From: Desulfovibrionaceae bacterium
GTDB lineage: Bacteria > Desulfobacterota > Desulfovibrionia > Desulfovibrionales > Desulfovibrionaceae
Length of the DNA: 36,671 nt
Direction: 5' to 3'
Assembly: GCA_031082225.1 (NCBI GenBank)
Contig: JAVHLG010000037.1
Location: 1-36,671 of the forward strand
Part shown: one piece after another, positions 23,870-36,602 of the stretch
Numbering within the stretch: the stretch's first letter is position 1
Layout: each line of letters opens with the position of its first letter
The notes under the pieces: model-generated
What the model was told of the DNA's origin: nothing
Seen by the model: only the letters and a program-made list of their open reading frames with translations
Databases searched by the model: none
Made by a program: the position numbers and the translations under genes

Positions 23870-24011
23870 CTCTGGCGCGGCGACCGTCCGGCGAACGCCC
23901 GACGCGTCTGCCCTTTCCGCTCCGCAGCGCCTTCCCTTCCCCCCAAGTGTTGCGTTCAGCAATTTCCGGTATGCTGTAAAAATCAGCAAAACCTTGAATT
24001 TATGAATTTTA

Positions 24012-24034
24012 TTTACAAAAATGGTTTTTGTAAA
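24012..24034. terminator. AT-rich perfect inverted repeat between convergent genes
   Basis: TTTACAAAAA-TGG-TTTTTGTAAA, 10-bp arms with a 3-nt loop, just past the stop of the YdcZ-type gene (minus) and 142 nt after the NUDIX gene (plus). Position favours a bidirectional terminator. The strikingly low GC of 23950-24035 resembles the island at 24483-25647. Confidence 0.45.
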
Positions 24035-24041
24035 CGCCACT

Positions 24042-24482
24042 CTAGCCCTTGATCAGAAACACCCCGGCGGCCAGAAACGCCGCGCCGATGATCCGCTGCA
24101 GGTCCAGGGGCCGCACCGGATAGCCGAGGACGCCGAAATGATCCAGGGCCAGGGAGGACACGATCTGTCCGGCGATGATCACCGAGATCATGACCCCGGC
24201 CCCGAGCTTGGGCACCAAAAGCACCGAGGCTGCCACGAAAAAGGCCCCGAAGGCCCCGCCGGTCCAATACCACCAGGGGGCGGCGGCAACGGTCTGGCCA
24301 AGGGGCAGGGGAATGCGGAACACCAGCAGGTAGGCGGCCAGGACCACCGTCCCCACCACAAAGGAGATGAACGCGGCGGCCTCGGCCCCGCCGACCATCC
24401 GCCCCAAAAGGGCGTTGATGCCCGCCTGGACTGGAATCAGGATGCCCGCCGTGAGCGCCATGAGGAGAAAAGGCCATGTCAT
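24042..24482 (-). CDS. YdcZ/DMT-type membrane permease
   Basis: A 146-residue integral membrane protein with five hydrophobic segments, matching the YdcZ family of drug/metabolite-type transporters (DUF606). Landmarks are AGILIPVQAGINALLGR, PWWYWTGGAFGAFFVAASVL and VIIAGQIVSSLALDHFGVLG. Members are half-size and probably dimerise; substrate unknown. The gene is GC-rich but its upstream region is AT-rich, so its promoter probably lies in the adjoining island (TATATTAT-like sequence near 24510 on the minus strand). No strong ribosome-binding site is seen before ATG 24482. Confidence 0.85.
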   Translation of the reverse strand: MTWPFLLMALTAGILIPVQAGINALLGRMVGGAEAAAFISFVVGTVVLAAYLLVFRIPLPLGQTVAAAPWWYWTGGAFGAFFVAASVLLVPKLGAGVMISVIIAGQIVSSLALDHFGVLGYPVRPLDLQRIIGAAFLAAGVFLIKG

Positions 24483-24544
24483 AAAATCTATACCTATACC
24501 ATGTCGATAATATATAAACTACATTTGCGATTAATTAAAAACAT

Positions 24545-24561
24545 CTGTTCGTTAAAAACAG
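24545..24561 (-). terminator. Weak terminator after the HEPN-like gene
   Basis: On the minus strand CTGTT-TTTAACG-AACAG is followed by ATGTTTTTAATT. The 5-bp stem is weak, but the T-rich tail and its place 50-70 nt after the gene's stop support termination. Confidence 0.35.
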
Positions 24562-24611
24562 GACAATATCTAGCTCATCACAATGTGAAACAAGCACGCA
24601 AATGGAACATA

Positions 24612-25586
24612 TCAACACCGTAAATCTTGGACAATAAAACATGTACTATCCGTCACACCAAATGTGTGTGTAATTTTTCTGGAAATTCTTTTAATTATCG
24701 CAACAACAGCCTTATACGTCAACATAAAATCTAAGTTTGACGCATACGAGCCATAGTATCTGAAATTAACAATTTGTTTGTCACTCGGAATAGCACGAAA
24801 TAACTTTTCATCAAATCCCAACTCTTTACTCCCTCCAGCTATTTTGAACAACTTCCGCAGATCATGTGTTTTTGGAAAGGCATGATCTCGCTGTAACAAA
24901 TATATCTTTAAGGTTTTTTCAATCGCAAGATGAATATCCCAATGCATAAAACAGGATGGACCAATTTGGTTTTTAACAAATTGCTCTACAGCATTATTTA
25001 AATGCTGAACAACACTTTGCCGCATTGCATAGTATTGTTCAGAAACTGCAGCAAGAGATAAATCAATATTTATATTCCGCAACATAACAACAATAGATTT
25101 AACTCGTTTAAGAATACTATTTCTTAGTTGTTGATCCATTGAATTAAAATTTGGAGGCGACACAATCATGTCAAGAATTCTTTCGCCATCTAAAACTGAT
25201 CTCGGACAATAAACTTCAAGATGCTTCTCTTGATTCTTTGATGCTTTGGTTACGGTCACCGGAACATTAACCAGATAAGGTGTTCCATAAATGAGAATCA
25301 CCCCTTTAATTGTTGATTTTTCTTTTTTAAAATTACCATACTTATCATCATACCAAATACGTACGTATTTCAATAAATCAGTAAACCAACGTTCGGCAAC
25401 AAAATTCTCTGTCATTCCACAATCTGGAACTACAATTTCATTTTTTACAAGTAAAAAAGCTACATCAAGAGGTCTATCTGAAATTTTTACATCAGAATGA
25501 GCAAGAAATCTATCTAGCCGTTCAAACCATTCATTTGCCACACATTGCCCATCAATTTCATTGTCAATGTCGTGCTCAGTGTTCAT
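24612..25586 (-). CDS. AT-rich gene with C-terminal HEPN-like domain
   Basis: A 324-residue protein encoded by DNA with far lower GC and different codon use than its neighbours, a sign of recent transfer. Residues 1-200 match nothing I recognise. Residues about 213-305 resemble a HEPN domain: WDIHLAIEKTLKIYLLQRDH, then AFPKTHDLRKLFKIAG, then VNFRYYGSYASN, and a last helix. HEPN proteins often act as RNases in defence or toxin-antitoxin systems, or as nucleotide-binding partners. The classic RxxxxH catalytic motif is not clearly present, so RNase activity is uncertain. No antitoxin or nucleotidyltransferase partner is adjacent. A hairpin sits over the start region. Confidence 0.7.
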   Translation of the reverse strand: MNTEHDIDNEIDGQCVANEWFERLDRFLAHSDVKISDRPLDVAFLLVKNEIVVPDCGMTENFVAERWFTDLLKYVRIWYDDKYGNFKKEKSTIKGVILIYGTPYLVNVPVTVTKASKNQEKHLEVYCPRSVLDGERILDMIVSPPNFNSMDQQLRNSILKRVKSIVVMLRNINIDLSLAAVSEQYYAMRQSVVQHLNNAVEQFVKNQIGPSCFMHWDIHLAIEKTLKIYLLQRDHAFPKTHDLRKLFKIAGGSKELGFDEKLFRAIPSDKQIVNFRYYGSYASNLDFMLTYKAVVAIIKRISRKITHTFGVTDSTCFIVQDLRC

Positions 25587-25587
25587 T

Positions 25588-25617
25588 CTAGCACCCGGGA
25601 TAATAAATTTATGCTAG
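25588..25617 (-). promoter_or_regulatory. Hairpin in the leader of the HEPN-like gene
   Basis: CTAGCA (25588-25593) and TGCTAG (25612-25617) form an inverted repeat ending one base before the ATG at 25586. No clear Shine-Dalgarno sequence is seen outside it, so folding could limit translation. It might also be an operator. Confidence 0.35.
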
Positions 25618-25647
25618 CAAAAAAATTCTTTACTCCTATTTATATAC

Positions 25648-26061
25648 TCAACTATACGTTTTATCCACCACCGTCTTCCCGATGGGCGCCATGGCCAGCA
25701 TGGCCAGCTTCAAGTGCTGAAACCCGAACGGTATCCCGATGATCGTCACGAAATTGAGCGCGGCGGCCAGGATATGGCCGATGGCCAGCCAGATGCCGGC
25801 CAGGACGAACCAGATGATGTTGCCCAGAAGGCCAAGCCCCCCGGTTCCCAGATCCTCACGCCCGGTGACCAGCTCCCGGTTGACCACCTCCTTGCCGAAG
25901 GGCCACAGGGACAACGTGCCGATGACGAAGCAGGACCGGCCCCAGGGGATGCCGATGATGGTCACGAACATGATGATGCCCGACAGATACCACCCCAAGG
26001 CCATCCAAAACCCGCCGAGTACAAGCCACAGGATGTTCAACAAAAAATTGACCGGGGCCAT
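25648..26061 (-). CDS. YccF domain membrane protein
   Basis: A 137-residue inner-membrane protein built from two similar YccF units: NILWLVLGGFWMALGWYL ending FVTIIGIPWG, and NIIWFVLAGIWLAIGHIL ending FVTIIGIPFG. The role of the YccF family is unknown. It starts 12 nt after the rhodanese-ferritin gene and probably shares its transcript. The 3' end marks the right edge of the AT-rich island. Confidence 0.9.
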   Translation of the reverse strand: MAPVNFLLNILWLVLGGFWMALGWYLSGIIMFVTIIGIPWGRSCFVIGTLSLWPFGKEVVNRELVTGREDLGTGGLGLLGNIIWFVLAGIWLAIGHILAAALNFVTIIGIPFGFQHLKLAMLAMAPIGKTVVDKTYS

Positions 26062-26073
26062 GCTTCCTCCAGA

Positions 26074-26940
26074 TTAGGGTTCGTATTTGTGCGACATCCG
26101 GTCCAGGTGCACGGACAGGGCCGCCAGATGTCCCTTTTCTTCGCGGGAAAGGCGCAACAGGGCCTGGCGGCTGTCCTCGGAGACCGCCGCCCGGGCGCAT
26201 CTGGCGTACAGATCCTGGGCCTGGGCCTCCACGGCCATGGCCAGTTCCAGGACGTCGCGCAGGTCTTCGGGGACGCCGCCGCGCCCGGAAAGATAGGCCA
26301 CGCCGGGAAGCCCTCCCTCCAGGGCCGCGCCGGTAGGGCTTTCGGACACGGCGGCATCAAGCCTCGCCGCATCCGGAACCGCCGCCCCGCTTTTGCGCCA
26401 CAGGGCCAGGACCATGGCCTTGTGTTTGTCCTCAAACCCGGCCAGCCTGCGAAACGTCTCGGCCAGTTCGGGATCGGCGGCCTTGTCGGCCTGGGCGTGG
26501 TAGAACGCGCCCAGGCGGACCTCCATGGCGTAGGCCACCTGGAAAATGGCCTCGGGTCCGGCGTCTGGCGGCAAAAAGACAATCCCCTGCTCCACTGGGC
26601 CGACGGCCCCGGCCCCGCGCCAGGCCAGCACCCCTCCGGCCATGTTCACCACCGGGGAAAACCCCTGACCGGCCAACATCGCCGCCGCAGCGGCGCTCCG
26701 GTGTCCGGAGCGGCAATAGGTCACCGTGGGCTTTTCCCGGTCCAGCTCGGAAAGGCGGTCGGACAGTTCCCCCAGGGGGGCAAGCCGCGCCCCGGGCAGA
26801 TGAAACTCCCGGTATTCCCAGTCCTGGCGCACATCCACCAGATTGACCGCCTCCGGAGGCGTTTTGGCCAGAAACCGGCGCACCTCGTCGGCGCTCTGGG
26901 TGACCACTCCGCCCGTCGCATCCGGCATGTCTTTTGCCAT
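26074..26940 (-). CDS. Rhodanese and ferritin-like (rubrerythrin-type) fusion protein
   Basis: Predicted cytosolic protein of 288 residues. The N-terminal rhodanese domain (about 12-110) has the persulfide Cys76 in TYCRSGHRSAAAA. The C-terminal ferritin-like domain (about 135-285) has diiron ligand motifs AMEVRLGAFYHAQ, FEDKHKAM, VEAQAQDLY and REEKGHLAAL. Such fusions are typical of anaerobes and may handle sulfane sulfur together with peroxide or iron; the reaction is unproven. ATG at 26940 is chosen because GGGGAC lies about 6 nt upstream and the rhodanese fold starts soon after. It lies 71 nt after the amidohydrolase gene. Confidence 0.88.
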   Translation of the reverse strand: MAKDMPDATGGVVTQSADEVRRFLAKTPPEAVNLVDVRQDWEYREFHLPGARLAPLGELSDRLSELDREKPTVTYCRSGHRSAAAAAMLAGQGFSPVVNMAGGVLAWRGAGAVGPVEQGIVFLPPDAGPEAIFQVAYAMEVRLGAFYHAQADKAADPELAETFRRLAGFEDKHKAMVLALWRKSGAAVPDAARLDAAVSESPTGAALEGGLPGVAYLSGRGGVPEDLRDVLELAMAVEAQAQDLYARCARAAVSEDSRQALLRLSREEKGHLAALSVHLDRMSHKYEP

Positions 26941-27011: not shown

Positions 27012-27830
27012 TCAAGACGCAGGCGGCGGCGCGTCGCCGCAGTCAAGGCCGATATCGGTCAGGGCGGCGGCCAAGGTGGCGGGGATCAGGCGCACAAGCG
27101 ATTCAAAGACCGGCCGATCCGCTGTGACGAACCGCTGGTTCACCTCCAGTTCGATGCCCAGATAGCCCGCCGGGAAACGCTTGCGAAGCGCCGTGACATG
27201 TCCGTCGGAGACGCCTTTGTAGGGCGCGTTGCGGCGCACCCGCAACTCCGGCCGGGCCGTGGCCAGGCGCGCCTTCCAGGCCGCGCACAGGGCCCGCTCA
27301 CCGTCCCGGCGGGGATCGTACAAAAGCCCCATGTCCATGGTCCGGGCCGCGCCGCGCCAGACCGGCACGAAACTGTGCGAGGCCAGATGGATGACGGTCT
27401 TCCCGGCCTTCAGAATATCGTTGACGGCCGCCAGAACCTCCCGGCGCATGGGCTGGTAGTGGGCGTCGAGAAGCGCCTGGCGCACGGACTGGGGCAGCCC
27501 CTTGGTATATTTTGAAAATTGCTTGGGGTGTCCGATGGAGCGATTCTGATCCACCACCAGCCGGGTCACGGTGCTGAAAAATAGCGGGGCATTGAACGCG
27601 GCGGCCAAGGCCCTGGCCATCTCCAGGGCCCCGGCGTCGTAGCCGCCGTGCCCGGCCAGATGATCGCCCTCGGTGCTGAACAGATGGGCCACTTCCAGGG
27701 GCACCCGGTTGCCGCCGTGCTCGCAGGTGACCACCACGGCCGCCGCATGACCACGCAACCCGTCGGGCAACCCGCCAGATGGCCTGCCGGGCGGCCCGGA
27801 GTCGGCCTGGACCGCGTGGGCGTCAGCCAT
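27012..27830 (-). CDS. N-formylglutamate amidohydrolase family protein
   Basis: Zinc-dependent amidohydrolase-like protein of 272 residues. Family motifs are TCEHGGNRVP (metal ligand), AGHGGYDAGALEMA, VTRLVVDQNRS and HLASHSFVPVW, then YLGIELEVNQRF. Classical members cleave N-formylglutamate in histidine breakdown, but no hut genes are here. The gene overlaps the end of the carboxylate-amine ligase by 8 nt and belongs to a cluster with two amide-bond-forming enzymes. Its substrate is therefore more likely a glutamyl or N-acyl product of that pathway (inference). ATG 27830 chosen; a TTG at 27833 precedes it. Confidence 0.88.
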   Translation of the reverse strand: MADAHAVQADSGPPGRPSGGLPDGLRGHAAAVVVTCEHGGNRVPLEVAHLFSTEGDHLAGHGGYDAGALEMARALAAAFNAPLFFSTVTRLVVDQNRSIGHPKQFSKYTKGLPQSVRQALLDAHYQPMRREVLAAVNDILKAGKTVIHLASHSFVPVWRGAARTMDMGLLYDPRRDGERALCAAWKARLATARPELRVRRNAPYKGVSDGHVTALRKRFPAGYLGIELEVNQRFVTADRPVFESLVRLIPATLAAALTDIGLDCGDAPPPAS

Positions 27831-29061
27831 CAAAGACCTCCCCGGCCTCCAGGCAGTCGGCCAGCCGCCGGTAGACGGCCACCAGATTCGGGCGCGAGAC
27901 GTCGCCGTGAAGGGCGGCCAGGATGCGCCGGGCCAGGCATCCCCGGGTCAGGATGGTCCCAAGGGGCGCGTCCCAGAGGGGGTCGCGCTCCATGTCCGGC
28001 CCCACGGCCTGCACCAGCGCCCGCCAGGCGTCGGCGGCCGTGATCCGGCCGGGCGGCAGCCCGAGCGCCGCCTGATAATCCGGGTCATCGACCACTGCCG
28101 CATCCGCGTCGTAGATGACCGAGCGCAGGATGTCCGCCAGTCGCGCCGTGTCCATGTCCCGATGCCGTCCGATGTCCCCGACGTGGCCCTGGGCCAGGGC
28201 CAGAAGTGCGCCACGGATCAACCCGGCCACAGCCACATCGGCGGCCGGGCATTCCTGGGTGTCCAGGACGCGGATCTCGATGGCCCCCCGGTCGAAACGG
28301 GCGATGGCCCCCCGGGCATTGAGGAATTCGTCGCACAAAAGGCCCTCCGGGTCCAGGGGGGTCATGTCCCGGTACATGCGCTGAAAGATGTCCCGGCGGT
28401 AGGACGTCTCGTCGAAAATCGGCTCGGGGACCACCAGACCGGCCACGGACGGAACCCGGGCGGAATTTTTCCCGTAAAACCCCATGCGGCTGTCGAGCAT
28501 GCCGGTGATGTGGCCGTCCAGGACCGGCGTGGAGGCGGTCAGGGCGGGCATCAGCGGCAGAAGCAGGCGCACGGCGGCGTGCAGGCGGCCAAACTCCCCG
28601 TCGCCGCAAAACGGCAGGTTGATGTGCATGCTCTGCAGGTTGGACCAGCCATGCCCCCGGCACCCGAAAATACGGTCGAAGGCCTCGTAGACCGGGCCGT
28701 ATTCATGGGGCCACAGCACCGTTTCCGTGCCCGGGTCCATGAAGGGATGCGCCCCCGTGGGCAAAAGGCTGGCCCCGTGCGGGGCCAGGATGGCGTTTAT
28801 GCGCCGGACGTGGTCCTGGAAGGCCGCCGCCGTTCCGGCCAGCCGCGGGACAGGCCCTGAGGTCTTCAGCTCGATGACGTGGGACACCAGTTCGTTGGAC
28901 CACGAGATGTCCTCGAATTCCACGTCCGAGACCGCTTCCCCGGCCGCGTCGCGCAGCACCAGATCGGCCCGGGGCAGCACCCGCAGGGTCGCCGCGTCCA
29001 CGATCATGTATTCGATCTCAAGTCCCGTGACCTGGAAAAGATGGAAGACGCGGGGACTCAC
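27823..29061 (-). CDS. GCS2-family glutamate-cysteine ligase-like carboxylate-amine ligase
   Basis: ATP-dependent ligase of the glutamine-synthetase fold that joins a glutamate-type carboxylate to an amine. The 412-residue protein opens with VTGLEIEYMIVD, the GCS2 metal/glutamate site. It then has SNELVSHVIELKTSGPVP, GAHPFMDP, NLQSMHINLPF and ARFDRGAIEIRVLDTQE. The start is GTG 29061, overlapping the stop of the RimK-like gene (GTGA); an upstream extension would only overlap that gene. It lies between a RimK-like ligase and an amidohydrolase. A glutathione role is unlikely from context; the amine partner is unknown. Confidence 0.88.
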   Translation of the reverse strand: MSPRVFHLFQVTGLEIEYMIVDAATLRVLPRADLVLRDAAGEAVSDVEFEDISWSNELVSHVIELKTSGPVPRLAGTAAAFQDHVRRINAILAPHGASLLPTGAHPFMDPGTETVLWPHEYGPVYEAFDRIFGCRGHGWSNLQSMHINLPFCGDGEFGRLHAAVRLLLPLMPALTASTPVLDGHITGMLDSRMGFYGKNSARVPSVAGLVVPEPIFDETSYRRDIFQRMYRDMTPLDPEGLLCDEFLNARGAIARFDRGAIEIRVLDTQECPAADVAVAGLIRGALLALAQGHVGDIGRHRDMDTARLADILRSVIYDADAAVVDDPDYQAALGLPPGRITAADAWRALVQAVGPDMERDPLWDAPLGTILTRGCLARRILAALHGDVSRPNLVAVYRRLADCLEAGEVFDG

Positions 29062-30527
29062 GGGACCATGCTCCCGGCCTTTCTGGCCTCGATGCGTTTC
29101 AAAAAGACCTCCATGATCTTCAGATACAGATCGTCCTGAAGCACCTCGTCCTCGTATCCGGCGTCGATGTTGGGATTGTCGTTGACCTCGATGACGTAGA
29201 CCTTCTTGCCGATCTGCTTGAGGTCCACGCCGTAGAGGCCGTCGCCGATGAGGTTGGCGGCCTTTAAGGCCATACGCACCACGGTTTTCGGGGCCTTGGT
29301 CACGGGCAGGGTCTCCACCTTGCCGTAGACCTCCCGGCCGGAGCCGTCCTTGCGAAGGATCTGCCAGTGCTTGGCGGCCATGTGGTACTTGCAGGCGAAA
29401 AGGGGCCGCCGGTCCAGGATGCCGATACGCCAATCGAAGGTTGACGGCACGTATTCCTGGGCGATGACCAGCTCGGACTTGGCCAAGAGCCGCTTGGCCT
29501 CCTTCATGAGCCGGTCCTTGTCCCGGGCCAGGACCACGCCCTGGGAGAAGGCGCTGTCGGGCTGCTTGAGCACGCAGGGCAGGGAAAATTCGGCCAGCAC
29601 CTGATCGATATTCTTACTGTGCAAAATCAAAGTCTTGGGAACGGGAACCCGGTAGCGGGTCATAAGCTCTGCCAGATAAACCTTGTTGGAGCAGCGCAGA
29701 ATGGATTCCGGATCGTCGATGACCACCAGCCCCTCGGCCAGGGCCTTGCGGGCGATGCGGTAGGTGTGGTGGTCCACGCTGGTGGTTTCGCGGATGAACA
29801 GGGCGTCGAATTCGGAGAGGCGGTTGGAGTCGTCGCGGGTGATCAGTTCCGTGCCAAGGCCCACGGTCTCGGCGGCCTTGACGAACTTTTTCAAGGCCTT
29901 TTGGTCGGACGGAGGGTGTTTTTCGGCCGGATCGTAGAGAATGGCCAGGTCGTAGCGGTTGACAGGCCGCTTGGGGATGACCAACTTCTTCCCGGCGAAG
30001 TACTCCGAGGCCATGGATTGGGCGAACTCCCGGTCCGCAGCCGGGATGTCCTTGACGCTTAAAGGCGAGATGTTTTGCAGGTTCCAACAGGCCGAACAGC
30101 CGAAATCGGCGCGCAGGAAAGGGGCCGGAAAGGACTTGAAGAGCCTGGAGGCCACGGGCTCGAACATCCTGTCCGGGGTCTTGCCGAAATAGATGTTCAC
30201 GCTGATCTTGCGCGGCTCCTGATCCACCAGTTGCCGACCGATGACCTCCTCCAGTTCGTCCGAAACCAGCCGGATGATGCCCTGGGACTTCATGTCCTGG
30301 ATGGTCACGATGCCCGGCACGGGCTTGTGTCCCCGGGCCTCGGCCAAAAGCGACACGTAGTAGCCGATGCTCTGGTAGCGGTAGGATTTGCACAGATTGA
30401 AGATCTTGACGCCCTTGAGCGCCGGAAAGGAGTCGTCGGCCAGATAGGACCGGGCGGCCACGGGCTCGACCCCCGAAAAAACCAGGGAGCACTCCTCGGG
30501 ATTTTCGATAACTACCAAAACGGACAC
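29058..30527 (-). CDS. RimK-like ATP-grasp ligase with N-terminal RLAN-type domain
   Basis: Predicted peptide/amide ligase of 489 residues. The N-terminal part (about 1-165; SVLVVIENPEECSLVF, then FNLCKSYRYQSIGYYVSLLA and FGCSACWNLQ) matches the RLAN domain found before some RimK-like enzymes. The ATP-grasp region (about 225-480) shows DALFIRETTSVDHHTYRIA, PCVLKQPDSAFSQGVV, IAQEYVPSTFDWRIGILD and the Mg-binding YVIEVNDNPNID. By family it activates a carboxylate as acyl-phosphate and couples an amine, often adding Glu or similar residues. It starts 3 nt after the C39-like gene and couples to the GCS2 gene by GTGA. The acceptor may be a small molecule or a protein tail. Confidence 0.9.
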   Translation of the reverse strand: MSVLVVIENPEECSLVFSGVEPVAARSYLADDSFPALKGVKIFNLCKSYRYQSIGYYVSLLAEARGHKPVPGIVTIQDMKSQGIIRLVSDELEEVIGRQLVDQEPRKISVNIYFGKTPDRMFEPVASRLFKSFPAPFLRADFGCSACWNLQNISPLSVKDIPAADREFAQSMASEYFAGKKLVIPKRPVNRYDLAILYDPAEKHPPSDQKALKKFVKAAETVGLGTELITRDDSNRLSEFDALFIRETTSVDHHTYRIARKALAEGLVVIDDPESILRCSNKVYLAELMTRYRVPVPKTLILHSKNIDQVLAEFSLPCVLKQPDSAFSQGVVLARDKDRLMKEAKRLLAKSELVIAQEYVPSTFDWRIGILDRRPLFACKYHMAAKHWQILRKDGSGREVYGKVETLPVTKAPKTVVRMALKAANLIGDGLYGVDLKQIGKKVYVIEVNDNPNIDAGYEDEVLQDDLYLKIMEVFLKRIEARKAGSMVP

Positions 30528-30530
30528 GTC

Positions 30531-31274
30531 TTATCTCCTGGATTTGCGTTTTTTGGCCTTCACCCGGCGCGGAAAGACCACCAGCATGTTGGCGTCGTAG
30601 GTCAAAATCCCCAGCATGATGGCGCAGATGAGCCGGTTAAGCGGCACGTCGTAGTGCTGGCCCTCGCTCATGGGGTTGGGAAGAAGCGGATCGGCGATGC
30701 GGGTGGTGCGGGCCTCGCGGTTATAGCCGCTGATGACCACGAAATGCCCGGACGGATCGCCGTGCACATCGTCGTACACGATCCTGCCGGTCTCGTCGTC
30801 GCGCTCCCGGGGGGTCCGGTACAGGTAGGTGGCCGAAAGCCCGGTCAGCACGGGCAGGCCCCGGGTGAGAAGCGAACGGATGAGCGAGGCCGTGAGATCC
30901 TCGAAGGCGATCTCCCCGCCGCGTCGCAGAAAGCGCAGGTAGGCCCTGGAGGCCAGCTTCAGCTTGGCATCGTCGCTGGCCTTCATGCGCTCGGTGAGGC
31001 GACTGCCCATGTCCGGCGCGCCGGGGCCGAACCAGGTGGGATCGAAGACCTGCAGGTTGAAGGTATAGAGTCTGGCCCCGTAGCCCCGGGCCAGGGCGTG
31101 GCTGCCCAGCAGCACCCCCAGCGTGCCGCCGCCCGCCAGGGTGGGGACTTCCCGGATGACCCGCTCCAGGGGGATGCGGTCTCCATAATAATGATAGACC
31201 GCGTGCAGGCAGGTGGGCCCGCAGGTGGTGTCGTCCGGTTGGGGGAGGATGTCGATGCCGAGTTTGGATTCCAT
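30531..31274 (-). CDS. C39-like (papain-fold) cysteine peptidase
   Basis: A 247-residue protein with a C39/papain-like catalytic set: oxyanion-hole Gln12 and nucleophile Cys18 in PQPDDTTCGPTCLHAVYHYY, His177 in SGHFVVISGYN, and Asp195 in IADPLLPN. No signal peptide or ABC transporter domain is present, so it likely acts in the cytoplasm. The C-terminus is very basic (RRVKAKKRKSRR). First gene of the amidoligase cluster, 3 nt before the RimK-like gene. It may trim or hydrolyse the ligase product, or transfer it to an amine; both are inference. ATG 31274 chosen because QPDDTTC should lie near the start; upstream codons are non-coding. Confidence 0.85.
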   Translation of the reverse strand: MESKLGIDILPQPDDTTCGPTCLHAVYHYYGDRIPLERVIREVPTLAGGGTLGVLLGSHALARGYGARLYTFNLQVFDPTWFGPGAPDMGSRLTERMKASDDAKLKLASRAYLRFLRRGGEIAFEDLTASLIRSLLTRGLPVLTGLSATYLYRTPRERDDETGRIVYDDVHGDPSGHFVVISGYNREARTTRIADPLLPNPMSEGQHYDVPLNRLICAIMLGILTYDANMLVVFPRRVKAKKRKSRR

Positions 31275-31370
31275 GGGGGGTGGCCTGGCGGGCTGTGCCG
31301 CCGGGACGGGTTGATCAGATACCCGAAGGCAGGGGAATGTCAAACGCCCAGGCAGAAAAAAACGCCAAAA

Positions 31371-31421
31371 GGGAAACTAATCTTTGACGTACCCCCTGTT
31401 GAAACATTATTGAAGTTTCCC
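31371..31421 (+). promoter_or_regulatory. Promoter region of glutamate synthase with flanking inverted repeat
   Basis: TTGACG (31384-31389) is a good -35 box; CATTAT (31405-31410) or TTATTG (31407-31412) could be the -10. The pair is enclosed by GGGAAACT (31371-31378) and AGTTTCCC (31414-31421), 8-bp arms that look like an operator or a large stem. It lies 45-95 nt before the amidotransferase ATG, in the 191-nt gap to the divergent peptidase gene. Confidence 0.45.
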
Positions 31422-31465
31422 CTCCACGCAATCGTGTCGGGAAATTCACATTTTTGGGGGAAACC

Positions 31466-32596
31466 ATGTGTCGTCTTTTCGCCCTCACCAGCCAGGCGCC
31501 GGTTTCGCCCATGCTGGCCGTCAATGCCTTAAACGTCATGAAGGAAGGGCATGACGGTTCCGGCGTGGGACTTTTCTTAAGCGGCCTGGGCGGCCCCTTC
31601 GGCCAGATGCCGGACTGCCCCATCCTTTCCGGGATATTTACCGAAAAGGGCCTGCGGCTTCTGGACGAATACGCCATGAGCAAGGGCTTTCTGGCCAAAC
31701 ACACCGTGGCCATCACGCCCAAAAACGACCCTCCGGCCGGAACCCCCCGGCGCGGAACCTATCTGGCCCGGGCCTACGAGCCCTCGGCCCAGTGGAAGGA
31801 TCTGCCAAAGGACAAGCGCGAGGCCGCCCTGGTCCAGGCCCGCCTGGATCTGCGCCACATGGGCGCGGACAACGAGGACGTGAAGGTCTTCAGCTTCTGG
31901 CCGGATACGGTGATGATCAAGGAGGTGGGCGACCCGGTGACCGTGGCCGAATACCTGGGACTCGACCGCGCGGAGTTTTTCGCCAAGCGCATCCTGGCCC
32001 AGGGACGGCAGAACACCAACTACGCCATCAACCTCTATGCCTGCCATCCCTTCTTCATCCAGGGCATAAGCACCATGACCAACGGGGAGAACACGGCCTT
32101 CGTGCCCATCCGGGAATACCTGTCCTCCCGGGGCGTCACCGGCTACGAGGGCTACCAGTCCGACTCCGAGGTCTTCACCCATATCCTGCACTTCACCCTG
32201 AACCGGCTGGGACTCGGGATCGAGGCCTACAAGCACGTCATCACCCCCCTGGCCGATAGGGAGTTGGAGAACCACCCCGACCGGGCGTTTCTTTCCAACA
32301 TCAAGAACGTGTGCCGCAAACTGACCATCGACGGACCCAACTGCGTCATCGGCTGCACCCCGGACGGGTCCATGTTCATGGTCCAGGACCGCAAAAAGCT
32401 TCGGCCCGGCGTGGTGGGCGGCCGTCCCGGCATCTTCGCCTTCTCGTCGGAGATCTGCGGCTTAAACGAGGCCATCCCCGAACGTGACCGGAGCAAGGAT
32501 TTCCAACCCATGTATCTCGATACGGCCATTGTCGGGCCGGATTGCCGTGAGGTGAAAATATGCCGTCAGAGCCAGTCATTACTCCGTCCACACTGA
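31466..32596 (+). CDS. Glutamate synthase, class II glutamine amidotransferase subunit
   Basis: Cytosolic subunit that hydrolyses glutamine and supplies ammonia to the synthase. The 376-residue protein begins MCRLFALTSQAPVSP, where Cys2 becomes the N-terminal nucleophile after Met removal, as in class II (Ntn) amidotransferases. It then has NVMKEGHDGSGVGLFL, NTNYAINLYACHPFF and ENTAFVPIREYL. In classical GltB this domain is fused to the synthase; here it is a separate gene, as in archaeal-type enzymes. ATG 31466 has GGGGGAAA just before it. The 3' end overlaps the next gene by 37 nt. Confidence 0.9.
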   Translation: MCRLFALTSQAPVSPMLAVNALNVMKEGHDGSGVGLFLSGLGGPFGQMPDCPILSGIFTEKGLRLLDEYAMSKGFLAKHTVAITPKNDPPAGTPRRGTYLARAYEPSAQWKDLPKDKREAALVQARLDLRHMGADNEDVKVFSFWPDTVMIKEVGDPVTVAEYLGLDRAEFFAKRILAQGRQNTNYAINLYACHPFFIQGISTMTNGENTAFVPIREYLSSRGVTGYEGYQSDSEVFTHILHFTLNRLGLGIEAYKHVITPLADRELENHPDRAFLSNIKNVCRKLTIDGPNCVIGCTPDGSMFMVQDRKKLRPGVVGGRPGIFAFSSEICGLNEAIPERDRSKDFQPMYLDTAIVGPDCREVKICRQSQSLLRPH

Positions 32597-34194
32597 GCCT
32601 CAAGGATCTCCCCTGGGTGCTTGACTGGGACAAGTCCACCTGCACCCTGTGCGGGCGGTGTACCGCCGTGTGCCCGGTGAGCGCCATCGAACTCGGGGTG
32701 TTCCGCAAACGCGAGGTGTCCGCCTCCCTGGGGCTCAAAAACAAGCCCGGGCAAAGCGTCACGGTCTACCAGGGCATCCGGCAGCGCACGGACCCGGCCT
32801 ACCGCTGCATCGGCTGCGGCATGTGCAACATGGTGTGCCCGAACAACTCCATCCAGCCCACGTCGCACCCCGAGGCCACCACGCTCAAGTTCCACAACAA
32901 CCGTGGCGGCCAGCCCCGCACCCGGGGCGGACGGCGCAACGACACCGGCAGCCTGCTGGACCAGATCAAGTTCATCCGCATTTCCATGCTCACGGACCCG
33001 GCCCTGGACGCCGGACGCCACGAGTTCGAGCTGCGCACGCTTCTGGGCCGCATCCTGCCCCCCGAGGAGGGCATGGCCGCCTTTGCCGACGGCCGCTGGA
33101 CCCCTCCCGTACGCGAGATCTATCCGCTCATGATCGGCGGCATGTCCTTTGGGGCCCTGTCCCCCAACATGTGGGAAGGCCTCCAGATGGGCGTGGCCTA
33201 CTTGAACGAGGAACTGGGCATGCCCGTGCGCATGTGCACCGGCGAGGGCGGCTGCCCTCCCCGGCTCCTGCGTTCGCGCTTCCTCAAATACGTCATCCTG
33301 CAGATCGCCAGCGGCTACTTCGGCTGGGACGAGATCATCCACGCCATCCCCCAGATGAAGGAAGATCCCTGCGCCGTGGAGATCAAGTACGGCCAGGGGG
33401 CCAAACCCGGCGACGGCGGACTTCTCATGTGGCACAAGGTCAACAAGCTCATCGCCGCCATCCGGGGCGTGCCCCCGGGCGTGAGCCTGCCCAGCCCCCC
33501 CACCCACCAGACCAAGTACTCCATCGAGGAGGCCGTGGCCAAGATGATCCAGTCCATGTCCATGGCCTGGGGATTCCGGGTTCCGGTCTATCCCAAGATA
33601 TCCGGCACCACCTCGGCCGGGGCGGTCTTAAACAACCTGGTGCGCAACCCCTTCGCCGCAGCCCTGGCCATCGACGGCGAGGACGGCGGCACCGGCGCGG
33701 CCTACGCCGTGTCCATGGATCACATGGGGCATCCCATCGCCTCCAACCTGCGCGACTGCTACCTGTCGCTGGTGGAACAGGGCCGCCAGAACGAGATCCC
33801 GCTCATCGCCGGGGGCGGCATCGGCAAAAACGGCAACCTGGCCGCCAACGCCGCCTCGCTGATCATGCTCGGGGCCAGCGCCGTGCAGGTGGGCAAATAC
33901 GTCATGCAGTCCGCAGCCGGATGCGTGGGCTCGGAGATCGACCGCTGCAACGTGTGCAACATCGGCGTCTGCCCCAAGGGCATCACCTCCCAGGATCCCC
34001 GCGTCTATCGCCGCCTGGACCCGGAAAAGGTGGCCGAAAGGCTGGTGGACACCTTCGTGGCCTTCGACGTGGAGCTTCGCAAAATCGTGGCCCCGCTTGG
34101 CCGCTCCACCTCGTTGCCCATCGGCATGTCCGACGCCCTGGGGATCAGCGACTATCGCGCCGCCAAGCGGCTGAAGATCAAATACGTGGTCTGA
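32560..34194 (+). CDS. gltB: Glutamate synthase FMN domain subunit with N-terminal ferredoxin
   Basis: Core synthase that makes glutamate from 2-oxoglutarate and ammonia on FMN. The 544-residue protein has two [4Fe-4S] motifs near the N-terminus (CTLCGRCTAVCP, about residues 28-39; CIGCGMCNMVCP, about 87-98). The FMN-barrel domain follows with MIGGMSFGALSPNMWEGLQ, VEIKYGQGAKPGDGG, PKISGTTSAGAV, AIDGEDGGTGAAY and LIAGGGIGKNG. The [3Fe-4S]-type ligand set is CNVCNIGVCPKGI. It matches archaeal-type, ferredoxin-containing GltB. It starts inside the amidotransferase gene (37-nt overlap) and ends 71 nt before the third subunit. Confidence 0.93.
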   Translation: MPSEPVITPSTLSLKDLPWVLDWDKSTCTLCGRCTAVCPVSAIELGVFRKREVSASLGLKNKPGQSVTVYQGIRQRTDPAYRCIGCGMCNMVCPNNSIQPTSHPEATTLKFHNNRGGQPRTRGGRRNDTGSLLDQIKFIRISMLTDPALDAGRHEFELRTLLGRILPPEEGMAAFADGRWTPPVREIYPLMIGGMSFGALSPNMWEGLQMGVAYLNEELGMPVRMCTGEGGCPPRLLRSRFLKYVILQIASGYFGWDEIIHAIPQMKEDPCAVEIKYGQGAKPGDGGLLMWHKVNKLIAAIRGVPPGVSLPSPPTHQTKYSIEEAVAKMIQSMSMAWGFRVPVYPKISGTTSAGAVLNNLVRNPFAAALAIDGEDGGTGAAYAVSMDHMGHPIASNLRDCYLSLVEQGRQNEIPLIAGGGIGKNGNLAANAASLIMLGASAVQVGKYVMQSAAGCVGSEIDRCNVCNIGVCPKGITSQDPRVYRRLDPEKVAERLVDTFVAFDVELRKIVAPLGRSTSLPIGMSDALGISDYRAAKRLKIKYVV

Positions 34195-34265
34195 GTCCGA
34201 CCGACGCCTACCTGAACGACGGGAGCGTCGCCGGCGCATCCGCAACAGCCTTTGGAGACCGTACC

Positions 34266-36602
34266 ATGGCACGAAACGCTTCGACGACCATCCACATAAG
34301 CGGCCAGGAAGACGGCCGCCGCGTGGAATCGCGCATCCTCGAGGAACGCATCCAACGCGCCGTCACCCAAGGCGCCCGCGACCTGGCCATTGAGGCCCAC
34401 GGTCAGCATGGCCTGGGCGGCCGCCTGTGGATTTCCGAAAAAGAGCCCATCACCGTGGCCATCACCGGTTCGACCGGACAACGCGTGGGCGCCATGGGCT
34501 TCCCCAACACCCGCATCGAGGTGATGGGACCAGCCTCGGACGATGTGGGCTGGCTCAACGCCGGGGCCGAGATCGTGGTCCACGGCAACGCCTCCAACGG
34601 CGTCGCCAACGCCATGGCCCAGGGCAAGGTCATGATCGGGGGCAACATCGGCTCCCGGGGCATGACCATGACCAAGGCCAACCCCCGGTTCACCCCGCCC
34701 GAACTGTGGGTGCTCGGCTCCACCGGCGACTCCTTCGCCGAGTTCATGGCCGGCGGCACGGCCGTGGTCTGCGGCCACAACCCCCAGGATCCGGAAAACG
34801 TCCTGGGCTTTCGTCCCTGTGTGGGCATGGTCGGCGGACGCATCTTCGTGCGCGGCCCCCACAAGGGCTTTTCCCAGAAAGACGCCAAACTTGAACCCAT
34901 AAGCGATGCGGACTGGGACTGGCTGACCACTAACCTGCGCGGCTTCCTCAAGGCCATCCATCGCCCGGAACTCCTCGACGCCCTCACCGTACGCGACCAA
35001 TGGCTGCTCATCGTGGCCAAAAGCCCCTACGAGAAGGCCAACTCCGCAAGGCGTTCCATGTCCGCCTTCCGCTCCCAGGTCTGGGACCGCGAATTGGGCA
35101 TGGGCGGCCTTATCGGCGACCTGACCCCGCTTGACCGCAGCCCCATCCCGCTGATCGTCACCGGCGAGATGCGCCGTTACGTGCCCGTGTGGGAAAACAA
35201 ACGCCGCAAAGCCCCCTGCCAGTCCAACTGCCCCACGGGCATCCCCGTCCAGGAGCGCTGGCAGCTCATCCGGGACGGCCATGTGGACGAGGCCGTGGAC
35301 CTGGCCATGGCCTACACCCCCTTCCCGGCCACGGTGTGCGGCTACCTGTGCCCGCACCTGTGCATGCAGGGCTGCACCCGCTCCACCAAAAGCATGCTGC
35401 CCGTGGACATCACCTTTCTGGGCAAGGCCGGGGTTTCCAGCAAAGTCCCGCCCCTGCCCGAACTCTCCGGAAAAAAGGTGGCGGTCATCGGCGGCGGCCC
35501 GGCAGGCATCTCCGCCGCCTGGCAGGTCCGCCTCCAGGGACACGAGGCCGTGGTCTACGACATGGACGAGATGCTGGGCGGCAAGATCTCCTCGGCCATC
35601 CCCAACACCCGCATCCCCAAAGAGGTCGTGGAGGCCGAACTGGAACGCGTTCGCCAGGTGCTGCCCCATGTGCACCTCAAGCACAAACTCACCCGGGACG
35701 AATTCCAGAACATCGTCGACACCAATGACTTCACCGTGCTGGCCGTGGGCGCGCAAAAGCCCCGCGTCCTGCCGGTCCCCGGCGCGGACAAGGCCATTCC
35801 CGCCCTGACGTTTTTAAAGCTCGCCAAAAAAGGGCAGGCCAAGCCCGGCAAACGCCTGGTCATTGTCGGCGCGGGCAACGTGGGCTGCGACGTGGCCACC
35901 GAGGCCGCCCGCTTCGGGGCCGAGGACATCACGCTGATCGACATCCAGAAGCCCGCCGCCTTCGGCAAGGAAAAAGTCGACGCCGAGGCCGTGGGTGCGA
36001 AGTTCCGCTGGCCCTGCTTCACCAAGGAGATCACAGACGATGGCCTGGTCCTGACCACCGGCGAGGTCATCCCGGCCGATACCGTCATCTTCTCCATCGG
36101 CGACCAGCCGGACCTGGACTTTCTGCCCGACACCATCGCCGCCAACCGGGGCTACGTGGTGGTCAACGAACTAGGGCAGACCTCCGAATCCAAGGTCTTC
36201 GCCATCGGCGACATCGTCAAACCCGGCCTTTTGACCGACGCCATCGGCGCGGGCCGCACCGCCGCCCTGGCCATCGGCGACATGCTGGCCGGACGCCGCC
36301 CCACCCCGGACACCCGGGAAATGATCGCCTATTCGCGCATCAAGCTCGAATACTTCGACCCGCGCATCCCCTCCTTCTCGGATATGGGACACTGCGCCTC
36401 GGAATGCTCCTCCTGCGGCTCCTGCCGGGACTGCGGCCTGTGCGAGGCCATCTGCCCGCGCGGGGCCATCACCCGCAACGCCCTGGAAGGCAAGAAGTTT
36501 GAAATGGTCAGCGACCCGGACAAATGCATCGGCTGCGGCTTCTGCGCCGGTGTCTGCCCCTGCGGCGTCTGGTCCATGACCCCCAATACCCCGCTCGGTT
36601 AG
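34266..36602 (+). CDS. Glutamate synthase GXGXG domain - GltD oxidoreductase - ferredoxin fusion
   Basis: A 778-residue fusion completing the synthase. Residues about 1-240 are the GltB C-terminal GXGXG domain (VMGPASDDVGWLNAGAEIVV, then GGNIGSRGMTMTKANPRFTP). A GltD-type N-terminal iron-sulfur domain (CQSNCPTGIPVQERW, then CGYLCPHLCMQGCTR) follows. Next comes an FAD/NAD(P) oxidoreductase with KKVAVIGGGPAGISAAW, RLVIVGAGNVGCD and KVFAIGDIVKPGLLTDAIGAG. The C-terminus has two ferredoxin motifs (CGSCRDCGLCEAICP, CIGCGFCAGVCPCG). It would carry electrons from NAD(P)H or ferredoxin to the FMN subunit. ATG 34266 has GGAG about 9 nt before. The same frame stays open far upstream as a shadow of the FMN gene. 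Confidence 0.92.
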   Translation: MARNASTTIHISGQEDGRRVESRILEERIQRAVTQGARDLAIEAHGQHGLGGRLWISEKEPITVAITGSTGQRVGAMGFPNTRIEVMGPASDDVGWLNAGAEIVVHGNASNGVANAMAQGKVMIGGNIGSRGMTMTKANPRFTPPELWVLGSTGDSFAEFMAGGTAVVCGHNPQDPENVLGFRPCVGMVGGRIFVRGPHKGFSQKDAKLEPISDADWDWLTTNLRGFLKAIHRPELLDALTVRDQWLLIVAKSPYEKANSARRSMSAFRSQVWDRELGMGGLIGDLTPLDRSPIPLIVTGEMRRYVPVWENKRRKAPCQSNCPTGIPVQERWQLIRDGHVDEAVDLAMAYTPFPATVCGYLCPHLCMQGCTRSTKSMLPVDITFLGKAGVSSKVPPLPELSGKKVAVIGGGPAGISAAWQVRLQGHEAVVYDMDEMLGGKISSAIPNTRIPKEVVEAELERVRQVLPHVHLKHKLTRDEFQNIVDTNDFTVLAVGAQKPRVLPVPGADKAIPALTFLKLAKKGQAKPGKRLVIVGAGNVGCDVATEAARFGAEDITLIDIQKPAAFGKEKVDAEAVGAKFRWPCFTKEITDDGLVLTTGEVIPADTVIFSIGDQPDLDFLPDTIAANRGYVVVNELGQTSESKVFAIGDIVKPGLLTDAIGAGRTAALAIGDMLAGRRPTPDTREMIAYSRIKLEYFDPRIPSFSDMGHCASECSSCGSCRDCGLCEAICPRGAITRNALEGKKFEMVSDPDKCIGCGFCAGVCPCGVWSMTPNTPLG

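Follow-up and report, generated by a model that had tools for sequence, protein, structure and literature searches.

A co-inherited operon of two amide-forming and two amide-cutting enzyme families, and its possible part in a gamma-glutamyl pathway

What is made, or modified, when two amide-forming ligases and two members of amide-cutting families are encoded together in one bacterial operon? The question is raised by a stretch of 36,671 nucleotides from a Desulfovibrionaceae bacterium (contig JAVHLG010000037.1; hereafter the window), part of a 4.08-Mb genome that is 99.98% complete. An earlier reading of the letters alone (the original prediction) had described four closely spaced minus-strand genes at positions 27012-31274, and both their coordinates and their Pfam identities were confirmed. 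From the first gene of the operon to the last, they are as follows.

30531-31274, minus strand: C39-like papain-fold protein (C39), 247 residues, ATG start
29058-30527, minus strand: RLAN-RimK ATP-grasp ligase (RLAN), 489 residues, GTG start
27823-29061, minus strand: GCS2-type carboxylate-amine ligase (GCS2), 412 residues, GTG start
27012-27830, minus strand: N-formylglutamate-amidohydrolase-like, or FGase-like, protein (NFG), 272 residues, ATG start

A gap of 3 nucleotides separates the C39 and RLAN genes, RLAN and GCS2 overlap in a GTGA (-4 nucleotides), and GCS2 and NFG overlap by 8 nucleotides. All four genes scored above the Pfam cut-offs. NCBIfam names none of them: GCS2 and RLAN fell far short of the cut-offs of the models that they match, and neither C39 nor NFG had any match. 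Conservation of the operon across genomes, together with its enzyme families, suggests a pathway complete in itself and located in the cytosol, whose product would be a small gamma-glutamyl compound and which would follow the logic of glutathione without the known glutathione enzymes; the probability of this interpretation is put at about 40%.

Co-inheritance and gene order

Within the window's family, 99 genomes were compared by profile search. RLAN was found in 18 and the GCS2 subfamily likewise in 18, 17 of which are shared with RLAN, while the C39 subfamily was found in 17, all of them carrying both ligases. NFG was found in 13 genomes, every one among the 17 C39 carriers, with one NFG on another contig. 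Fisher tests against RLAN presence gave p-values of 6e-17 for GCS2, 3e-18 for C39 and 1e-12 for NFG, which overstate independence because the genomes are kin; at the genus level, the values were 5e-8 for GCS2 and 4e-9 for C39. C39, RLAN and GCS2 adjoin in 16 of the 17 other RLAN carriers, the remaining one (L035) having RLAN alone, and NFG comes next in the row in 11 of the 17, with L031 among the rest being cut by a contig end. In genome G020, a GCS2 of the operon subfamily was observed with a stop in the match (C45:20843-22051), and RLAN, C39 and NFG were not found in that genome; the gene is possibly a decaying remnant.

Beyond the family, one genome per species was scanned and at least 585 confirmed RLAN relatives emerged, of which the best 80 were analysed, a sample that leans to close relatives. 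Open reading frames (ORFs) and starts at public and family loci were chosen by simple scripts and not by a gene caller. All four genes were found at 41 of the 80 loci, although NFG is cut by a contig end at three of these (L048, L062 and L113) and a core gene lies in two frames at three others of the 41 (C39 at L046, GCS2 at L068 and L090). C39, RLAN and GCS2 were found at 23 loci, and RLAN, GCS2 and NFG at 1; the rest had RLAN with GCS2 (5), C39 with RLAN (4) or RLAN alone (6). The order C39-RLAN-GCS2-NFG is unbroken at all 74 loci having at least two of the genes, and RLAN, the papain-like gene and GCS2 stand side by side at 64 of the 80, as they do in the window. Where the contig left room, C39 was present at 67 of 79 loci, GCS2 at 66 of 72 and NFG at 39 of 66, the last being a slight undercount (the NFG of L103 was found by Pfam and missed by the profile). 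The commonest spacing at both the C39-RLAN and the RLAN-GCS2 junctions was -4 nucleotides, as judged from the script-picked starts of public loci. Rare co-occurrence of the four genes is thus contradicted, in agreement with the original prediction that they belong together.

By their record titles, many of them metagenome-assembled, the four-gene loci spread over at least nine phyla. They include Pseudomonadota (Thiobacillus thioparus, Noviherbaspirillum, Nitrosomonas), Desulfobulbaceae, Desulfuromonas, Planctomycetota, Verrucomicrobia, Bacteroidetes (Pontibacter, Marivirga), Ignavibacteriae, Balneolaceae, Nitrospirota, Spirochaetes, Leptospiraceae, Omnitrophota and Vicinamibacteraceae. In a mirror-tree comparison, the distances of the three partners correlated with those of RLAN (r 0.65, 0.64 and 0.57 over 66, 67 and 36 loci), and none of 2000 permutations reached such values; the correlations show that the genes moved together, by vertical descent or by joint transfer, which this comparison does not separate.

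The RLAN gene had no match in 14 well-known control genomes. A phage search with RLAN returned two weak partial matches, and a plasmid search returned 15 records, 11 of them covering at least 80% of RLAN. One such record, from Pseudomonas aeruginosa (L116), has a lone RLAN-RimK gene near a glutamate/aspartate ABC transporter and a gamma-glutamyltransferase, and another, from Legionella adelaidensis (L117), has RLAN, GCS2 and NFG annotated in a row.

No general partner was found outside the core. When ORFs of at least 50 residues were clustered, the widest cluster occurred at 6 of the 80 loci. A Pfam scan of 90 of the 138 picked flanking genes at public loci returned EgtC-like proteins in 4 of 90 and MFS proteins in 4 of 90, and a scan of 48 of the 95 picked genes at family loci, two congeners being among those left out, revealed nothing general. 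These scans brought out no general conservation of transporters, carrier proteins or export genes beside the operon, and the product is therefore probably retained inside the cell.

Predicted enzymes and a possible gamma-glutamyl pathway

Each of the four proteins retains the residues that we take to be catalytic, an assignment based on the respective families. The C39-like protein matches Peptidase_C39_2 (34.6 bits, cut-off 24; Pfam PF13529/PF03412), and no signal sequence was evident on inspection by eye, no predictor being used; its Q12, C18, H177 and D195 are invariant in a 51-row alignment. The RLAN-RimK ligase has what defines its class, namely an RLAN domain (PF14401, 147 bits, cut-off 25) and a RimK-type ATP-grasp domain (PF08443, 40.9 bits, cut-off 21) with Mg/ATP residues, of which K321, D435, E447 and N449 are invariant over 62 rows. 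GCS2 is placed among the GCS2 ligases by PF04107 (98.3 bits, cut-off 21), with E15, E17, Q143 and E262 invariant over 53 rows, and its profile matches YbdK and plant GCL only remotely. NFG matches FGase (PF05013, 73.6 bits, cut-off 28.9), and its family profile finds the solved Atu2144 (2odf) with an E-value of 2.4e-36; E37, H38, H152 and E227 are invariant over 33 rows. The earlier claim of intact catalytic residues therefore holds, in that the expected positions do not vary across broad alignments.

Plants, cyanobacteria and alphaproteobacteria make glutathione with one pair of enzymes, a GCS2 ligase and then an ATP-grasp ligase. A pathway for a gamma-glutamyl peptide or amine is the simplest reading of the operon because this pair occurs together with a papain fold of the glutathione-processing type and a glutamate-type acyl hydrolase, and without a general exporter. 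The proposed pathway is based on which genes are present and in what order, on their co-inheritance, and on predicted folds and invariant residues. GCS2 would couple glutamate, by its gamma-carboxylate, to the amino group of X, an amino acid or an amine, giving gamma-Glu-X. The RLAN-RimK ligase would join Y, a further amino acid or amine, to the carboxylate of N-blocked gamma-Glu-X, a step modelled on the ATP-grasp ligase of glutathione synthesis. The C39-like enzyme may then act on gamma-Glu-X-Y through an acyl-enzyme, either by hydrolysis or by transfer of gamma-Glu-X to another acceptor, as modelled on the phytochelatin-synthase-like enzymes that act on glutathione, and the FGase-type zinc enzyme would clear N-acylated glutamate. 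We infer in this scheme the order of the reactions, the linkage through the gamma-carboxylate, the partners X and Y, and the direction in which the two cutting enzymes work.

The original prediction had spoken of two makers and two breakers. That the genes form one functional unit, with two families that form amides and two that cut them, is upheld, but the term "two breakers" is too firm, because the papain-fold relatives also include transpeptidases and amide synthases and because NFG is optional. At one locus at which no NFG was found (L036), a gene for an AstE/AspA-type deacylase adjoins GCS2 on the opposite strand (L036:9738-10862); this deacylase may substitute functionally for NFG.

A second arrangement was found in Azospirillum brasilense Sp7, in which a GNAT acetyltransferase is fused to a C39-like DUF3335 domain and overlaps RLAN, with no match to GCS2 or NFG on a 13.4-kb stretch. 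The C39-like domain is thus paired with RLAN in two architectures, in which the acetyltransferase and GCS2-plus-NFG appear as alternatives. These alternatives may serve to put an N-blocking group on the substrate of RLAN and to take it off again. A GNAT-C39 fusion beside RLAN, in a stretch without a GCS2 or NFG match, fits a part for both GNAT and GCS2 in N-blocking that substrate. Locus L110 has a free-standing GNAT gene, then RLAN, then a diaminopimelate-decarboxylase-like gene (below cut-off), and GCS2 was not found there.

Counted in favour of the gamma-glutamyl pathway are the tight co-inheritance, the unbroken order, the abutting or overlapping genes, the Azospirillum arrangement, a fold superposition and a set of neighbours. 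The model of the C39-like protein (predicted local distance difference test score, pLDDT, 94.9) superposes best on the glutathione acyl-enzyme of Alr0975 (2bu3; Z 16.5, 2.4 Å, 160 residues). The neighbours are EgtC-like class-II amidotransferases, a family that removes gamma-glutamyl groups; they flank the operon at 4 of the 80 loci, upstream in L042 and L044 and downstream in L069 and L071. No ergothioneine gene was recognised among eight further neighbouring genes scanned at these loci.

Several observations weigh against the gamma-glutamyl pathway. The EgtC-like neighbours score 190-204 bits, below the cut-off of 218.65, and are confined to those few loci; no EgtC-like gene was matched in any of the 99 family genomes (nor in any control genome). 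NFG is missing from many loci. Of the six loci with RLAN alone, five have room for C39 and GCS2; three of the four with only C39 and RLAN are cut by a contig end, the fourth (L038) having 5.9 kb of room; and the five loci with RLAN and GCS2 lack C39. The four genes are therefore not always one pathway, given the lone RLAN and the incomplete sets. C39 peptidase domains tie with Alr0975 in the superposition (9azl; Z 16.2, 2.0 Å, 136 residues), and the folds matching the C39 model span hydrolases, transpeptidases and amide synthases. In addition, the ATP-grasp half of the RLAN-RimK model best matches ligases of protein or carrier C-termini (ArgX-LysW, RimK-RpsF), which favours a rival explanation set out below, and glutathione synthetase (1gsa) superposes lower on it (Z 22.6). 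Likeness of fold between the two models and solved enzymes does not in itself demonstrate a function.

Compared with GCS2-type GshA, GshB and Alr0975, the operon has the same pairing of ligase families and a papain-fold enzyme of matching fold, but its proteins miss the equivalog cut-offs and it has in addition an FGase and an RLAN domain. Glutathionylspermidine synthetase/amidase likewise couples an ATP-grasp-type ligase to a papain-like amidase, although from other families, and the operon has two further enzymes. The more ambitious proposal, that the operon makes an unrecognised glutathione-like gamma-glutamyl tripeptide or amine conjugate in many phyla, with the papain-fold protein as a transpeptidase in the role of phytochelatin synthase, is tentative and on balance doubtful.

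Rival products and textbook roles

Reversible tagging is the main rival, because the ligase half most resembles enzymes whose substrates are the C-termini of carriers or proteins. RLAN would attach a residue, glutamate or another, at the C-terminus or on a side chain of a protein or small carrier, GCS2 would cap or extend the tag, and C39 and FGase would remove it. Residues 192-480 of the RLAN-RimK model (pLDDT 90.4) superpose on ArgX with LysW (3vpb; Z 28.1, 2.5 Å, 268 residues), LysX (28.0) and RimK (27.3), all being tied. The absence of a generally conserved export gene in the flanking-gene scans is also consistent with tagging. A published maker/breaker pair, RimK and RimB acting on RpsF (ribosomal protein S6), is described in PMC12239564; it shares with the operon a RimK-type ligase and an opposing protease, but the operon has an RLAN domain and its cutting enzymes are of other families. 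RpsF tails give no signal for tagging: a tail ending in glutamate was found in 1 of 17 operon carriers and in 1 of 13 non-carriers, the lone-RLAN genome G048 not being included. Biosynthesis on a LysW carrier gained no support in the window's genome, in which the best LysW match reached 13.8 bits against a cut-off of 53.2, and no carrier gene generally adjoins the operon among ORFs of at least 50 residues. The likeness to LysX/ArgX-LysW thus lies in the superposition, and the difference in the lack of a LysW above cut-off. Tagging is considered a rather unlikely explanation, though one to be taken seriously.

The breadth of folds matching the C39 model bears on two further rivals. CtaG, the amide synthase of the closthioamide pathway, is among these matches, and papain-fold acyltransferases occur in known pathways. 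The papain-fold protein could accordingly be a CtaG-like amide synthase or acyltransferase of a non-ribosomal compound deblocked by FGase, in secondary metabolism or in the detoxification of amines by temporary glutamylation. CtaG (best E 1.6e-3) nevertheless ranks below the phytochelatin-synthase-like and C39 peptidase folds and is absent among the 50 superpositions listed, and the surroundings of the operon show no general conservation of genes for carrier proteins, transporters or amine catabolism; we regard this rival as quite unlikely. A C39 domain with bound leader peptide (6mpz) is likewise among the matches, and both leader cleavage by C39 and ATP-grasp modification in graspetides are known. 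In a graspetide-like system, C39 would cut the leader of a short genome-encoded peptide whose core is modified by the ATP-grasp ligase and GCS2. The C39 protein is free-standing here, however, and neither a small ORF nor a transporter is generally conserved nearby (among the screened ORFs of at least 50 residues); a ribosomal peptide is considered very improbable.

Is the operon simply known chemistry under unfamiliar names? The family names alone point to glutathione synthesis, histidine degradation and S6 glutamylation, and each was tested. For GshA, the operon's GCS2 scored 23.8 bits against the cyanobacterial cut-off of 249 (TIGR02048), and PF04262 had no match in the window's genome. For GshB, none of the 99 genomes was above the TIGR01380 cut-off of 299, although 48 had matches below it (best 118.8 bits); the bifunctional GshF lay outside these tests. 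Since 81 of the 99 genomes also lack RLAN, the operon is no family-wide stand-in for standard glutathione synthesis. RLAN scored 25 bits against 331 for the S6-specific RimK equivalog (NF007764). HutH (PF00221), sought as a sign of the histidine degradation in which HutG acts, had no match in the window's genome, while 5 of the 14 controls matched. The statement that no hut gene is present thus stands genome-wide for histidine ammonia-lyase, to which its scope is limited. As the original prediction held, the textbook roles tested do not fit, none of the three having gained support; with RpsF tails alike as well, such a misreading is the least probable of the rivals and is given hardly any weight.

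Genomic setting and place among known systems

Features around the operon in the window are as follows.

31275-31465, minus strand: intergenic region common to the operon and the divergent glutamate synthase genes
31466-36602, divergent and upstream of the operon: split glutamate synthase, comprising an amidotransferase-like protein, an FMN (flavin mononucleotide) domain and a long downstream frame
26074-26940, directly downstream of the operon: rhodanese-rubrerythrin fusion

About 40 nucleotides ahead of the C39 start, a TTGACA-16-TATCTG stretch was seen by eye. Its TTGACA hexamer is retained and its TATCTG hexamer changed in both of two congeners, and a consensus scan of 31275-31465 returned no sigma-70 site; as a candidate promoter, the stretch is a hint only. 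The amidotransferase-like part of the glutamate synthase is separate, starts with MCRLF and had no Pfam or NCBIfam match. Glutamate synthase lies beside the operon at 3 of 18 RLAN loci, all in the window's genus, and is therefore placed outside the unit. The rhodanese-rubrerythrin gene adjoins the operon only within the genus; L031 has a 45% identical copy at a distance of 6.8 kb from its operon. A yccF gene is also found downstream; outside the window, yccF, rhodanese-rubrerythrin and the split glutamate synthase are operon neighbours only in two congeners. Farther downstream, a HEPN-domain gene (24612-25586) lies in an AT-rich stretch, in which 24001-26000 has a GC content of 45% and the flanks about 64-69%, and was perhaps recently acquired.

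How new is such an operon? In 2009, Iyer et al. (Mol Biosyst) reportedly described amidoligase neighbourhoods linking RLAN-RimK with papain-like peptidases and GCS2, and predicted peptide synthesis. The operon shares with these neighbourhoods RLAN-RimK beside papain-like and GCS2 genes, and differs in that the four-gene order including FGase is followed here by counts over phyla and by phylogenetic profiling. The kind is thus known through the 2009 prediction; the operon is a well-supported metabolic operon with predicted chemistry and is not categorically new. The survey is cited in four papers (PMC12239564, PMC12096838, PMC10318531 and PMC10945688), the last of which deals with a phage amidoligase. 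In the open-licence literature, with most subscription papers lying outside it, no characterisation or product of the operon was found.

What does the operon mean for the bacteria that carry it? The fixed order in at least nine phyla, the co-inheritance and the lack of general helper genes together point strongly to a single conserved metabolite or modification. The lack of an RLAN match in all of the well-known control genomes may explain why the operon has been missed. Its two ligases and two cutting enzymes make up a directly testable pathway.

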